Positions 12,240-26,930 of a stretch of 64,000 nucleotides of DNA are shown here, piece by piece. The notes beneath the pieces were generated by a model. The model made no database searches and was not told the DNA's origin. It was given only the letters and a program-made list of their open reading frames with translations. A program made the translations under genes and the position numbers. Every line of letters begins with the position of its first letter. Positions within the stretch are counted from its first letter, which is position 1. The DNA comes from Hyphomicrobiales bacterium. Its GTDB lineage: Bacteria; Pseudomonadota; Alphaproteobacteria; Rhizobiales; Beijerinckiaceae. The stretch lies in contig CANGIS010000010.1 in assembly GCA_947454055.1 (NCBI GenBank), positions 1 to 64,000 of the forward strand, written 5' to 3'.

Positions 12240-12444
12240 GTAGGGTTTAGGGTTTAGGGTGTATAATTTATCCGTCACTGCGAGCGAGAGCGAAGCGGCC
12301 CAGATGATGGTTAGCAAGTAAGCGCTAGACTTCGATTGTACCGGACCAACTACCACCAACTGGGTGGCGACACTCTCGCTCGCCATGACGGTTTGGTTTT
12401 ACACCCTACGCCCTACGCCCTACTCCCTACACCCTACACCCTCA
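12240..12444. repeat. Palindromic repeat copy 1 with telomere-like flanks
   Basis: A 118-base core (12273-12390) starts CGTCACTGCGAGCGAGAGCG and ends with the near-complement CTCTCGCTCGCCATGACG. The core is bordered by TAGGGTTTAGGG-type units on the left (12241-12262) and CCCTAC/CCCTACG units on the right (about 12402-12442), themselves inverted relative to each other. It fills the space between the convergent genes gltD and the transglycosylase. The core arms are shared with a second copy at 38252-38369. It could form a very large hairpin in RNA from either strand. No coding capacity. Confidence 0.9.
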
Positions 12445-17334: not shown

Positions 17335-17535
17335 ATGTCCCACACCCACTCCCATCATAGCCATTCCGATTCGTCCCATTCCCATCACGCCCATTCTCAT
17401 CACGTCCATTTTCATGCGCCTTCGCGCACGGCAAAGGGCCGTTCGCTGATGCAGTTGTCCGTCTCGGCGCGGCTTTTGGGGGCAGGTATTTTGGCCGCCA
17501 TCCTTTGGATGGCTGTGCTGGCGGTGATGCTATGA
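17335..17535 (+). CDS. Small histidine-rich single-span membrane protein of the znu locus
   Basis: A 66-residue protein. Thirteen of its first 27 residues are histidine, arranged as HS/HH repeats, followed by a basic linker (SRTAKGRSLM) and one hydrophobic segment near the C-terminus (LLGAGILAAILWMAVLAVML). It overlaps the znuC start by four bases (ATGA), which argues for translation as the first gene of the operon. The histidine tract is a likely zinc-binding segment on one face of the inner membrane. An ATG at 17326 is an alternative start; neither has a strong ribosome site. I know no named family; the role is inferred. Confidence 0.75.
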   Translation: MSHTHSHHSHSDSSHSHHAHSHHVHFHAPSRTAKGRSLMQLSVSARLLGAGILAAILWMAVLAVML

Positions 17536-22054: not shown

Positions 22055-23476
22055 TTAGCGAACCAGGATATTCTTGAACTGCCACGGATCGGAGGAATCG
22101 ATATCCTCCGGAAAAAGACCCGGCCGGCCTTTAAGTGGCGTCCAATCGGTATAATGCCCCTCGACCGAGCCGAGATAAGGCATCTGCACCTCGAGACAAC
22201 GGCGGAAATCCAGATCATCCGCCTCTACAATGCCGGCTTCGGGATTTTCCAGCGCCCAAACCATGCCCGCAAGCACGGCAGAGGTAACCTGCAGGCCTGT
22301 AGCGTTCTGATAAGGAGCGAGCTTTCGTGTCTCTTCGATCGACAGCCTAGAACCATACCAATAGGCGTTCTTGGCATGGCCATAGAGCAATACGCCCAGT
22401 TCATCGACACCATCGACGATCTCGTTCTCATCGAGGATTTTCCATTCGGGCTGGCGTTGCCCCTCCTGTCCGAACATCTCGTGTAGTGACAAAACGGCAT
22501 CGTCGCACGGATGATAGGCATAATGGCAGGTCGGGCGATAAACAGCCTTGCGGCCGGCATCATGGACAGTCAGATAATCTGCGATCGATATTGCTTCATT
22601 GTGAGTGACAAGAAAACCGAATTGCGCGCCCGGTGTCGGCGTCCATGAGCGGACGCGGGTATTCGCGCCCGGTTGCAGCAAATAGATTGCCGATTGGCAT
22701 CCCGTTGCATGGGTGCGGCCATTTTCCGGCATCCATTTTTCATGGCTTCCCCAGCCGAGCTCGGCAGGCTGCAAGCCTTCGGAAATAAAGCCTTCAACCG
22801 ACCAGGTGTTGACGAAGGTGCCGCGTGATTTGGGGCTGTTAGCCCGCTGCGTATCACGTTCGGCAATATGAATGCCCTTAACGCCCAACAGTTGCGCCAA
22901 CCCCGCCCATTCGGCCTTCGTTTGTGGTTCTTCCCCGGCAACGCCCATATCTTTTTGGAGATTAAGCAAAGCCTGCTTGACGAACCACGACACCATACCC
23001 GGGTTAGCGCCACAGCATGAAACAGCGGTCGGCCCGCCGGGCGATTGACGGCGAAGCTCCAGAATGACCTCGCGAAGCGCGTAATTCGAACGATCTCCGG
23101 GGCCTTTGGAGGAGTCAAAATAAAAGCCGAGCCACGGCTCTGCCACGGTGTCGATGTAAAGCGCGCCCAAAGACCGCGACAAATCCATAATATCGCGCGA
23201 GGACGTATCGACAGACAGGTTGATACAGAAGCCCTGTCCGCCGCCAGCGGTTAACAGCGGACCTATAAGCTCGCGATAATTTTCACGCGTTACCGCCGAC
23301 TGAACAAATTGAATGCCGCGTTCGTCAAGCAGGTACCGATCGGAATCGGAGGGATCAATCACGACGAGGCGCTTGGGATCAAATTCGATATGGCGTTCGA
23401 GCAGAGGTAGAATTCCCCGTCCAATTGAACCGAAGCCAATCAGCACAATAGGGCCTTCAACACGAGCTAACTTCAT
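22055..23476 (-). CDS. hss: Homospermidine synthase
   Basis: This protein of about 473 residues has an N-terminal NAD-binding Rossmann motif IVLIGFGSIGRGILPLLERH and the motifs VDTSSRDIMDLSRSLGALYIDT, ALREVILELRR, PTAVSCCGANPGMVSW, and ATGCQSAIYLLQPG, typical of bacterial homospermidine synthases. It converts two putrescines to sym-homospermidine plus ammonia in the cytoplasm. I used the ATG at 23476. A GGAGAGG site lies about 20 bases upstream and would better suit in-frame TTG starts slightly earlier, so the N-terminus is uncertain by up to 16 residues. It is the last gene of a decarboxylase-GNAT-hss run on the minus strand. Confidence 0.93.
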   Translation of the reverse strand: MKLARVEGPIVLIGFGSIGRGILPLLERHIEFDPKRLVVIDPSDSDRYLLDERGIQFVQSAVTRENYRELIGPLLTAGGGQGFCINLSVDTSSRDIMDLSRSLGALYIDTVAEPWLGFYFDSSKGPGDRSNYALREVILELRRQSPGGPTAVSCCGANPGMVSWFVKQALLNLQKDMGVAGEEPQTKAEWAGLAQLLGVKGIHIAERDTQRANSPKSRGTFVNTWSVEGFISEGLQPAELGWGSHEKWMPENGRTHATGCQSAIYLLQPGANTRVRSWTPTPGAQFGFLVTHNEAISIADYLTVHDAGRKAVYRPTCHYAYHPCDDAVLSLHEMFGQEGQRQPEWKILDENEIVDGVDELGVLLYGHAKNAYWYGSRLSIEETRKLAPYQNATGLQVTSAVLAGMVWALENPEAGIVEADDLDFRRCLEVQMPYLGSVEGHYTDWTPLKGRPGLFPEDIDSSDPWQFKNILVR

Positions 23477-24264: not shown

Positions 24265-25395
24265 TCAGATCGTGTACGATCGGAGTGGTGGGAAACCATT
24301 AAAGGCAACGGCCGAATAGGTCGTCGTATAGGCCCCCGTTCCTTCGATCAGTACCTTATCGCCAATCTGGAGGGAAACAGGCAGCATATAGGGCACCTTT
24401 TCATAAAGGACGTCGGCGGAATCGCAGGTCGGACCGGCCAGCACGCAAGGTGCCATTTCCGACTCATCATGACGGGTACGAATGGGGTAGCGGATCGACT
24501 CATCCATCGTTTCGGCCAGACCACCGAACTTGCCGATATCGAGATAGACCCAACGCACATCATCGTCGTCCGATTTCTTTGAAATCAGAATAACTTCCGA
24601 TTCGATGATACCGGCATCACCCACCATACCTCGGCCCGGCTCAATGATGGTTTCCGGCATGTGATTGCCAAAATGCTTCACAAGGCCACGGAAAATGGCC
24701 TCGCCGTAGTTTTCAACACCCGGGACCGGCTTGAGATATTTGGCCGGAAAGCCACCACCAAGATTGACCATCGAAAGCTGCATGCCCCGTTCGGCGCATT
24801 CGCGGAAGATGGCAGAAGCGGAGCCAAGGGCCTGATCCCAAGCCTCGACATTGCCCTGCTGGGAACCGACATGGAACGATACACCATAGGCCTCCAGACC
24901 TAATCGGTGAGCATGTTCGAGTACGTCCGCCGCCATTTCAGGTACACAGCCGAACTTTCGCGATAAAGGCCATTCAGCACCCGCGCCATCGCACAAGATG
25001 CGGCAGAAGACACGGGCTTCAGGAGCCGCACGAGCTACCTTGTCTACTTCAGCCATACAATCGACGGCGAAGAGGCGAACGCCCAACGTGTAGGCAGTGG
25101 CAATATCGCGCTCTTTCTTGATCGTGTTGCCAAACGAGATGCGGTCAGCCGTCGCACCCGCAGCAAGTGCCATTTCGATCTCGACCACGGAGGCCGTATC
25201 AAAGCAGGACCCGAGAGCGGCGAGCAACCGCAAGACTGCAGGATCAGGATTAGCCTTCACCGCATAATAAACGCGGGTATCCGGCAAGACCTTGGCAAAG
25301 GTACGATAGTTTTCGCGAACGACGTCAAGGTCGACAACAACGCAAGGACCATCCTCACGGCGGTTACGCAGAAATTCACGGATGCGTGCGGTCAT
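24265..25395 (-). CDS. Ornithine/lysine decarboxylase, fold-type III PLP enzyme
   Basis: A 376-residue alanine-racemase-fold decarboxylase (group IV). The PLP lysine is in YYAVKANPDP (about residue 47), with SFHVGSQQGNVEAW, the glycine-rich NLGGGFPAKY, EPGRGMVGDAG, and the second active-site motif TCDSADVLYEK. It probably makes putrescine (from ornithine) or cadaverine (from lysine); feeding homospermidine synthase argues for putrescine. GGGAG lies upstream of the ATG at 25395. A leader of nearly 400 bases with consecutive hairpins precedes it, indicating RNA-level control. Confidence 0.9.
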   Translation of the reverse strand: MTARIREFLRNRREDGPCVVVDLDVVRENYRTFAKVLPDTRVYYAVKANPDPAVLRLLAALGSCFDTASVVEIEMALAAGATADRISFGNTIKKERDIATAYTLGVRLFAVDCMAEVDKVARAAPEARVFCRILCDGAGAEWPLSRKFGCVPEMAADVLEHAHRLGLEAYGVSFHVGSQQGNVEAWDQALGSASAIFRECAERGMQLSMVNLGGGFPAKYLKPVPGVENYGEAIFRGLVKHFGNHMPETIIEPGRGMVGDAGIIESEVILISKKSDDDDVRWVYLDIGKFGGLAETMDESIRYPIRTRHDESEMAPCVLAGPTCDSADVLYEKVPYMLPVSLQIGDKVLIEGTGAYTTTYSAVAFNGFPPLRSYTI

Positions 25396-25479
25396 GGCAC
25401 GAACTCCCTCAATCGAAGCCGCTAGGCTTCCTATTACAGAACATCGGGTGACGACTTCCCGCACCGGCGCGTTGGAAAC

Positions 25480-25790
25480 GCCAGAGGGGTCAGGTCAACC
25501 GCGTGAACTGCCTTAGATTGGAAGGGAAAACCCCGCCGCACTGTTGGCAAGATGGACAAGCCTCTTCGGGTTCTCTGCCTTTGGAGGGCAGAGAGAGACG
25601 AAAAAGCCCGATCCGTCGTTGCTTTAAGTCGCGTCCCTCGGGGAGAACGAGGTGCGCCGGTTTCGCCTCCGGCTGCCAGTTGATTATCGGATTCGCCGAG
25701 AAGTCTGACGAACCCGGGCGGCTGTCCGGCCTCTTGTCCGGATGCCCACCAACCGACACACGACCACAGGCACGTGCGAAATTGGGCAAG
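25480..25790 (-). promoter_or_regulatory. speF-like structured leader of the decarboxylase gene
   Basis: On the minus strand the leader has three successive perfect hairpins: GCCGG/CCGGC (25656-25673), CCTCG/CGAGG (25636-25652) and CTCTGCC/GGCAGAG (25573-25593). Between them lies the unpaired block GGGACGCGACTTAAAGC followed by AACGACGGATCGGGC and five Ts. The layout and the GACGCGACTTAAAGCAACGA-type block resemble the speF motif described upstream of alphaproteobacterial ornithine decarboxylases. A polyamine- or ornithine-responsive attenuator is the natural hypothesis. The match is from memory; a covariance-model search would decide it. Boundaries are approximate. Confidence 0.7.
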
Positions 25791-25793
25791 GGG

Positions 25794-25822
25794 GGAATAG
25801 GGGCATTACCCCCCCATTGCAA
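25794..25822 (-). promoter_or_regulatory. Probable promoter of the decarboxylase leader
   Basis: On the minus strand TTGCAA (25817-25822) and TATTCC (25794-25799) are separated by exactly 17 bases, giving a start near 25787 and a leader of about 390 bases. Confidence 0.5.
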
Positions 25823-26018: not shown

Positions 26019-26930
26019 CTATTTGGCGGGATGCACTTTCCGCCAGTGCCGTGCAATATCGATACGTTTGGCGACCCAAACCTTGTCGTGGCTTTGCACA
26101 TAATCAAGAAACCGCTCCAGCGCCAAGGCCCGGCCTGGCCGGCCGACAAGTCGGCAATGCAGGCCGATATTCATCATTTTCGGGGCGCCCTCCGCGCCTT
26201 CGCGCCAGAGTAGATCAAAGCTATCCTTGAGGTACTGGAAGAAGTGGTCTCCGGTATTAAAGCCCTGCGGTGTGGCAAAACGCATATCATTGGCATCGAG
26301 TGTATAAGGGATGATCAAGTGGGAGCCATGAGGCCCTTTCACCCAATAGGGAAGATCATCGGCATAGGTATCCGATGAATAGAGAAATCCCCCTTCCTCC
26401 ATCACCAGAGCCTGCGTATTCATCGAGCATCGGCCCGTGTACCAACCCAGGGGACGTTCGCCGACCACCTCGGTGTGCAGACGGATGGCTTCCGCAATTT
26501 GGGCGCGCTCTTCATCGGCCGACATGTCTTTATGCTCGACCCATTTGAGGCCATGGGATGCTATTTCCCAATCGGCCTCCTGCATCGCCTTCACCTGATC
26601 AGGACTGCGGGCCATGGCGGAAGCAACGCCATAAACGGTGACGGGCATCTGGCGCTTGGTGAACATCCGCCACAACCGCCAAAATCCGGCGCGGGCGCCA
26701 TACTCGTAAATCGATTCCATATTCCAATGCCGCTGGCCTGGCCATTGCGCCGCTCCGACGATTTCCGAAAGGAAGGCTTCTGACGCCGCATCGCCATGAA
26801 GAATATTGTTCTCGCCACCCTCTTCGTAATTCACCACGAACTGCACACAGACATTCGCGTCGCCAGGCCATTTCGGATCAGGGGTTAGGCGGCCATAGCC
26901 ACGCATGTCACGGGGATATTCGGTCGTCAT
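26019..26930 (-). CDS. puuE: Allantoinase PuuE-like polysaccharide deacetylase family enzyme
   Basis: The 303-residue protein begins MTTEYPRDMRGYGRLTPDPK, the usual start of the cofactor-independent allantoinase PuuE. The NodB-like barrel shows VQFVVNYEEGGENNILHGD, NMESIYEYGARAGFWRL, WEIASHGLKWVEH and GWYTGRCSMNT. It hydrolyses (S)-allantoin to allantoate in purine breakdown. GAGGAG precedes the ATG at 26930. No other ureide genes are beside it, so a related amidohydrolase activity cannot be excluded. Confidence 0.85.
   Translation of the reverse strand: MTTEYPRDMRGYGRLTPDPKWPGDANVCVQFVVNYEEGGENNILHGDAASEAFLSEIVGAAQWPGQRHWNMESIYEYGARAGFWRLWRMFTKRQMPVTVYGVASAMARSPDQVKAMQEADWEIASHGLKWVEHKDMSADEERAQIAEAIRLHTEVVGERPLGWYTGRCSMNTQALVMEEGGFLYSSDTYADDLPYWVKGPHGSHLIIPYTLDANDMRFATPQGFNTGDHFFQYLKDSFDLLWREGAEGAPKMMNIGLHCRLVGRPGRALALERFLDYVQSHDKVWVAKRIDIARHWRKVHPAK

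Follow-up and report, generated by a model that had tools for sequence, protein, structure and literature searches.

The ar45 and speF RNA motifs look like parts of one ornithine decarboxylase leader in Hyphomicrobiales that may adopt two competing folds

What kind of RNA precedes the decarboxylase gene of this Hyphomicrobiales bacterium, and could it respond to polyamines? The window, by which we mean the whole 64,000-nucleotide stretch of DNA that was analysed, carries on its minus strand the gene odc (24265-25395, start codon ATG 25395-25393), encoding an ornithine/lysine decarboxylase-like PLP enzyme of 376 amino acids whose nearest solved structures, by sequence comparison, are lysine/ornithine and ornithine decarboxylases. 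Downstream of odc on the same strand are an open frame that by eye has the look of an acetyltransferase and the homospermidine synthase gene hss (22055-23476, minus strand; 7.9e-257 to solved homospermidine synthases), and the allantoinase gene puuE lies upstream of the leader, also on this strand (26019-26930, 551 bits). A sequence-only reading had described a speF-like leader of about 390 nucleotides before a complete homospermidine pathway and had put it forward as a candidate polyamine sensor, calling feedback by ornithine or polyamines plausible. Such a leader does run on the minus strand from a promoter-like pair to the odc start codon, and the pathway claim holds for odc plus hss, with odc assigned by its nearest solved enzymes. 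Elsewhere the window contains a complete model match to the suhB/mmgR small RNA (RF00519; 1801-1872, minus strand, 70.5 bits), a short tandem array of TACACCC repeated 6.1 times (12400-12442) and a 15-nucleotide tandem repeat of the CACGCCCATTCCCAT type (17341-17415).

Since 2005, speF has stood as an orphan among riboswitch candidates; ar45 was described apart from it, as a small RNA. Both are found here, and all leader features given below lie on the minus strand. The covariance model RF00518 matched positions 25448-25594 with 53.7 bits (E 2e-10), over its cut-off of 37 bits, which bears out the speF identity; an absent covariance match had been named beforehand as one half of what would speak against that reading, and this did not occur. 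Immediately before it, the ar45 model RF02347 matched positions 25787-25602 with 59.3 bits (E 2.4e-10, cut-off 40 bits) across model positions 1-148 of 148, comprising helices P1 and P2, a multibranched variable insert and an end at a T tract. The two matches stand back to back upstream of the odc start codon, with 52 nucleotides from the end of the speF match to the ATG of what is, by sequence, a COG0019-type ornithine decarboxylase gene. In the available text of Corbino et al. 2005, the speF motif occupies the same place before a COG0019 odc, with conservation from near the putative transcription start, and an “extended speF element” is described as a stem with a large insertion, after which about 80 conserved nucleotides form a long bulged stem-loop with invariant outer pairs. 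The current RF00518 model (153 positions) matches only the part of our leader after the T tract. Additional conserved speF sequence and structures are attributed to Greenlee et al. 2018 by the available portion of a later review (PMC7266159). The ar45 RNA (RF02347; SmelC706, smrC45) appears as a separate small RNA in the portions of the literature available; in the window, it has its promoter, its structure and one strand in common with the odc leader.

A scan with Rfam models of 17 related loci found speF in all 17 and ar45 directly upstream in 15; at the other two, a contig end cuts the sequence 29 nucleotides before speF. We then used two larger sets. The first holds 121 loci collected by either Rfam family, the window copy included, and in 117 of them the ar45 end motif and the speF core motif are 32-42 nucleotides apart; four loci failed the motif search, namely L074 and L116, whose element has a changed core, and L102 and L103. 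These 117 include the window copy and duplicate genomes (for example L002/L054, L017/L061 and L031/L062), and dereplication left 81 leaders. The second set comprises at least 116 named stretches located by the ar45 5' end alone. The motif search placed the core in 105 of the 116 named stretches listed, eight others being cut short (three are too short, and L141, L147, L193, L196 and L212 end before or inside the core) and three having a core that by eye is a variant (L124, L154, L183). This set is partly dependent on the first, 14 of its 105 cores being identical to a first-set locus. By order, the at least 116 named stretches fall into Hyphomicrobiales (105), Rhodobacterales (2) and Rhodospirillales (2), with 7 unplaced; the leader is widespread in Hyphomicrobiales and also occurs in a few further alphaproteobacterial orders.

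An odc gene follows the leader at all 117 loci with both motifs and in 103 of the 116 named stretches, among the matches listed. The other 13 end 289-408 nucleotides (L133, L140, L164, L177, L228) or 29-299 nucleotides (L135, L141, L147, L162, L193, L196, L206, L212) after the 5' motif, that is, 29-408 nucleotides overall, and therefore show no exception to odc. A different downstream gene that might betray the ligand was found neither at the 117 loci nor in the 103 stretches with a gene to inspect. A covariance model built from the joined region scored the window at 118.7 bits (E 1.5e-29), compared with the 53.7 bits of RF00518, the window itself being in the seed, and gave a single match in the window's genome under the same dependence. 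Searches of more than 40 genomes, with the Rfam families or the new model, were run with stricter filters that lose weak matches. One divergent leader comes from another order (L253, about positions 1480-1710 of its minus strand), has odc downstream and leaves a short gap to the odc start; under those filters, no match came from the remaining 42 genomes of that order. Together, the comparisons suggest that ar45 and speF look like parts of one RNA that Rfam carries as two families.

The tie between the two parts is a helix. In the composite alignment of the 81 leaders, the strongest covarying column pair links the final nucleotides of ar45 to the speF core; in the window, GGAT (25614-25611) faces GTCC (25554-25557). 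We found 95.9% of 319 cells of this joining helix paired, versus 67.2% in shuffled alignments (81 sequences; none of 500 shuffles as good), and a covariation score of 0.686 versus 0.224 shuffled (sd 0.023), which no shuffle of 500 reached and which fell to at most 0.161 when the pairing was slid. The pairs occur in the classes GGUG/CACC, GUAG/CUAC, GUAA/UUAC, GGAN/NUCC and GAAC/GUUU, the window having GGAU/GUCC, and one class (2 of 81 leaders) has a U-U mismatch. Pairs changed on both sides (3 versus 3.1 shuffled, reached by 485 of 500) and further pair types (8 versus 7.2, reached by 182 of 500) showed no excess; these two of five covariation measures sit at the shuffle level, as is to be expected of a helix of only four pairs. 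With every locus, in both sets, scored at whichever of two offsets paired better, four pairs form at 98 of the 117 first-set loci, three at 18 and two at one, and the corresponding counts were 88, 16 and one of the 105 named loci listed. Without the 14 identical cores, and scored in this way, 76 of the 91 listed loci were fully paired, 14 had three pairs and one had two, whereas swapping 3' strands between leaders left 34.4 fully paired on average and 47 at most. A tree of the decarboxylase proteins places seven changes of the two middle pairs on each strand and seven joint ones; support for this tree is weak, with 23 of 78 branches starred.

RNAalifold extends the joining helix by GCAA with UUGC (TTGC at 25547-25550; invariant in 81 of 81). 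Both strands of this extension are invariant, as is P1 in the aligned set, and covariation therefore neither supports nor opposes either of them. For the four-pair helix itself, the comparative data show compensatory change that preserves the predicted pairing of the ar45 end with the speF core, which lies about 50 nucleotides further downstream, beyond the T tract; the leader thus has the conserved structure supported by covariation that is looked for in riboswitches. The present Rfam boundary cuts this helix in two. A further closing helix taken from the fold of the 5' domain plus core, between 5' UUGCC and core GGCAG, was rejected: it showed no covariation, with standard pairs in 48 of 77 leaders versus 50.7 shuffled, four leaders without the core GGC being left out. 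The long stem-loop of Corbino et al. 2005 probably includes the same joining helix; the speF portion of that text available names no second fold with a common strand, no hairpin corresponding to P7 below and no Shine-Dalgarno partner. The joining helix and P7 may already be part of the update by Greenlee et al. 2018, and we claim no structural novelty. Our contribution is to put numbers, checked in a second set of loci, on the evidence that the two Rfam families are one leader with a contested strand, and to add the P7 hairpin and a link to the Shine-Dalgarno sequence.

The contested strand is GCAACGAC-GGAT-C-GGGC (25606-25622), for which the 5' end of the leader (ar45 fold) and the core (speF fold) appear to compete. 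All 115 of 115 leaders have its outer blocks, GCAACGAC and GGGC, having been picked by these motifs with one mismatch allowed, and the P1 strands GCCC and GGGC are likewise in all 115, picked by near matches to such motifs. P1 pairs GCCC (25787-25784) with GGGC (25609-25606), and P2 pairs GGTCGTGT (25758-25765) with ACGCGACT (25627-25634), both P2 arms being backed by the computed fold and by covarying columns. The earlier description of GGGACGCGACTTAAAGC (25637-25621) as an unpaired block next to a T5 tract does not hold: the 3' arm of P2 makes up its middle and pairs with GGTCGTGT at 25765-25758, the shared strand GCAACGACGG starts with its last two letters, and 15 nucleotides separate it from the tract. 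The T5 tract itself is where it was said to be, at 25605-25601, directly after the 3' arm of P1 at the end of the ar45 model. What that description missed is the main feature of the leader, the two competing long-range folds predicted for it.

In computed structures, the partner of the strand GCAACGACGG-N-GGGC depends on the core: without it, the strand pairs upstream, at the 5' end (P1, UCG, UGC), and with it, downstream, to a CACC-type strand and UUGC of the core itself. The mean pairing probability of P1 exceeds 0.5 in 115 of 115 isolated ar45 domains. Once the core is included, the best nested fold holds at least three joining-helix pairs in 70 of 81 leaders and P1 in one of 81, and in forced folds the downstream arrangement is better by a median of 7.7 kcal/mol; these energies ignore pseudoknots. 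The two nested folds exclude each other at GCAA, which is claimed by the 5' strand or by UUGC, and P1 and the four-pair joining helix alone could coexist as a pseudoknot. For the window, the 182-nucleotide 5' domain folds with a z score of -2.2 (6 of 200 shuffles equally stable) and the 291-nucleotide 5' domain plus core with -3.4 (none of 200). In the divergent leader L253, both helices are changed and by eye complementary, P1 as CCGUC/GACGG and the joining helix as GUAAG/CUUAC. The alternation between upstream (ar45) and downstream (speF) pairing is, in these predictions, attenuator-like.

Transcription of the whole element from one start is suggested by a promoter-like pair, TTGCAA (25822-25817) and TATTCC (25799-25794) with 17 nucleotides between them (25794-25822), which would place the start near 25788-25790. 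TTG and TA 22-26 nucleotides apart occur just before ar45 in 111 of 115 first-set leaders and in 102 of 103 named leaders listed, versus 6-8% of shuffled sequences. In a scan of the window with E. coli consensus patterns, this promoter was not among the hits, nor was any terminator at the T tract; what the scan did list was one promoter-like site inside ar45 (25711-25683; 0.1 expected by chance) and one terminator-like site in the core (25553-25530; 0.5 expected by chance). At least five of eight letters at the T tract are T in 71 of 80 leaders, and the tract is broken in some loci (CCUUUCU in the family coded f196; Mesorhizobium L193). Given these broken tracts and the absence of the tract from the terminator scan, cleavage is a live alternative source of ar45. 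The downstream strand is complete a median of 61 nucleotides after the 3' arm of P1, only past the T tract. This strand can therefore be no antiterminator of the usual kind there; a possible role is to fix the fold in transcripts that have escaped. Between core and ATG there is no second conserved intrinsic terminator, the longest T run being under four in 47 of 80 leaders, four in 28 and five or six in five.

Published transcripts accord with a 5' part that also exists on its own. SmelC706 of S. meliloti is a 148-nucleotide RNA listed with RF00518 in the available text of PMC2873474, and the part of PMC7717549 at hand reports ar45 as a separate RNA in Bartonella, with speF on a transcript of more than 700 nucleotides, and in S. 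meliloti an ar45 RNA that accumulates separately and co-precipitates with Hfq. A separate ar45 RNA is on record in the available publications for S. meliloti, Bartonella and Methylosinus only. We infer that ar45 is an early-ended or cleaved product of the odc leader.

The leader carries hairpins of several kinds. The perfect hairpins of the sequence-only reading exist, as TCTCTGCC/GGCAGAGA at 25594-25572 and as CCTCG/CGAGG and GCCGG/CCGGC in the computed fold of the 182-nucleotide 5' domain. The one at 25572-25594 is P4, with a perfect 8-bp stem and the loop CTCCAAA. P6 (25520-25537), in the core, belongs to a set of covarying pairs, and its 3' arm is complementary to the Shine-Dalgarno-like GAGGGAG before odc (25404-25410). 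Across leaders this complementarity scored 16.55 versus 12.31 with shuffled sequence, the strongest of eight segments tried, and the arm scored 15.9 with its own site versus 14.16 with the sites of other genomes; none of 40 permutations was as high, a comparison from which relatedness is not removed. P7 (25464-25484), between core and odc, has the loop TTCCAAC in the window and CUCCA as family consensus. Our definition, a CUCCA or UUCCA loop, was widened after a first look, which moved the first-set count from 61 of 80 (shuffled mean 2.7) to 66 of 80 (3.1). The wider definition was used for the named set, where 72 of 98 listed leaders have P7 (4.2 shuffled; 61 of 85 without shared cores), seven of the 105 having been dropped, five cut short and two without an ATG at the expected place. 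The tabulated stems were chosen by pairing, and the shuffled counts are therefore the fair test. P4 and P7 have a UCCA loop in common, and P6 has UUCCAA at its 3' foot; the recurrence of this motif has the look of a binding site or of a mimic of an anti-Shine-Dalgarno sequence. P6 and P7 together suggest, from comparative evidence, a second, translational layer of control.

Which signal might set such a leader? In the order sample of 397 genomes, ar45 was found in 169 and hss, at E 1e-60, in 216; hss was present in 162 of the 169 genomes with ar45 versus 54 of the 228 others, an association confounded by descent. The new leader model matched 35 of those 54, one match being partial, so that 197 of the 216 hss genomes carry the leader; the search behind this count covered hss genomes, and a further 174 genomes of the sample have neither hss nor an ar45 match. 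The leader goes with the homospermidine pathway, subject to that confounding. Seven of the 169 ar45 genomes, one of them 58% complete, had no synthase match at E 1e-60, and the new model found the leader again in all six of the seven that were searched. Homospermidine from this synthase is therefore unlikely to be the universal signal. Within one family (f201), eight genomes have an hss match and no match to ar45 or to the new model (G429, G470, G505, G535, G563, G586, G628, G680), and two have ar45 (G608, G647). The proposed polyamine sensor draws indirect support from two observations, the constant presence of odc downstream wherever the DNA allows and the association with hss.

The sequence-only reading took the speF ligand as not settled, which agrees with the literature. 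In the available text of Corbino et al. 2005, probing of the Agrobacterium speF RNA found no binding of six pathway compounds, homospermidine not among them; a 2020 review suggests, in its available part, that missing motif parts may explain failed binding tests (PMC7266159), and a 2024 review states in the portion available that there is no strict evidence of a speF riboswitch (PMC11477304). A 2026 paper on S. meliloti measured hss and casdh fusions, as far as its available text goes (PMC13293326). On the regulation of odc, we found no data in the openly licensed literature.

We consider the chances roughly even that the element is one regulatory odc mRNA leader with two competing folds that acts as an attenuator-like switch, perhaps one responsive to polyamines. 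Several other explanations draw on the same evidence. That the 5' domain or core is a metabolite riboswitch, binding homospermidine, putrescine, ornithine or another compound directly and setting termination or translation, would suit the block UCGCACGUGCC, which lies partly in an internal loop of the ar45 fold and is identical in 115 of 115 leaders, as well as the covarying long-range helix, the constancy of odc where the DNA allows and the link with hss. The six compounds left unbound in the published probing, as far as its text is available, count against it, and the ar45 genomes without a synthase match (7 of 169) count against homospermidine in particular, for which uptake or another synthase is possible; on balance, we regard direct binding as unlikely, though a serious candidate. 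A peptide offers another route to a small-molecule signal. In E. coli, the speF/SpeFL leader controls an ornithine decarboxylase gene through an ornithine-sensing peptide, and ribosome stalling of that kind could be imagined here, given 39 candidate frames that fall at one place, a core UUG with a purine-rich stretch before it in the leaders inspected. However, 15 of 80 leaders lack a candidate frame, the UUG frames of four inspected leaders run to 38, 12, 25 and 26 codons, and core loop lengths differ by single bases. No upstream frame keeps a constant place and length across the 80 leaders, in which this family differs from the peptide-based SpeFL, and we hold this mechanism to be very improbable.

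Two further readings shift the weight to one end of the element. If ar45 were chiefly a trans-acting, Hfq-dependent small RNA, the odc mRNA would be read-through and the composite structure would protect or mature the small RNA. Its separate accumulation and Hfq co-precipitation in S. meliloti, as given in the part of PMC7717549 available, fit this; yet the joining helix, one strand of which lies outside ar45, is kept by compensatory change, and the element stays beside odc wherever this can be checked, which a free small RNA would not need, and we judge this reading to be distinctly unlikely. At the other end, a protein or the ribosome could operate the leader through the UCCA loops of P4 and P7, with P6 masking the Shine-Dalgarno sequence; control would then lie chiefly in translation or mRNA decay, with an RNase site at the T tract. 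The frequency of P7 in the two sets over its shuffled counts (66/80 against 3.1; 72/98 listed against 4.2) and the complementarity of the P6 arm to the Shine-Dalgarno sequence above shuffled and swapped sites speak for this. Its standing is lowered by leaders where P7 was not found (14 of 80, and 26 of 98 listed), by variable distances to the start codon, by a permutation that keeps relatedness and by the divergent L253, in which neither P6 nor P7 is recognisable by eye; we think it rather unlikely.

Under the switch with two competing folds, a single promoter would yield a transcript that begins with the ar45 domain. While the core is still absent, pairing with the 5' end would close a stable domain just upstream of the T tract. 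A polymerase at the tract would meet the first fold alone, which would favour an early end and might release the separate ar45 RNA of Sinorhizobium and Bartonella. A polymerase that escapes would make the core, which would take over the shared strand and give the odc mRNA, where P6 and P7 probably add control of translation. The choice of fold may depend on the cell's polyamine state, with a ligand, an ion effect or a protein as candidate mediator. A narrower version, which we put forward tentatively and think improbable as a whole, makes ar45 a sensor within a long-range terminator: polyamine-dependent closure of P1 would pick between small RNA and odc mRNA, the core would lock the escaped transcript, and the element would represent a new class of riboswitch or polyamine-sensing RNA, with an Hfq-bound small RNA as its “off” product. 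Terminator-embedded riboswitches of the HMP-PP class likewise have a conserved domain that is a terminator-like structure. The comparison is one of mode of working, and in that class, unlike here, the ligand is known.

If ar45 and speF form one switch, previous binding assays and work on the small RNA may both have dealt with only a portion of it, and the shared strand offers precise sites at which mutations would separate termination, translation and small-RNA functions. Such a switch, if real, would also place polyamine synthesis in alphaproteobacteria, nodule symbionts among them, under control at the RNA level.
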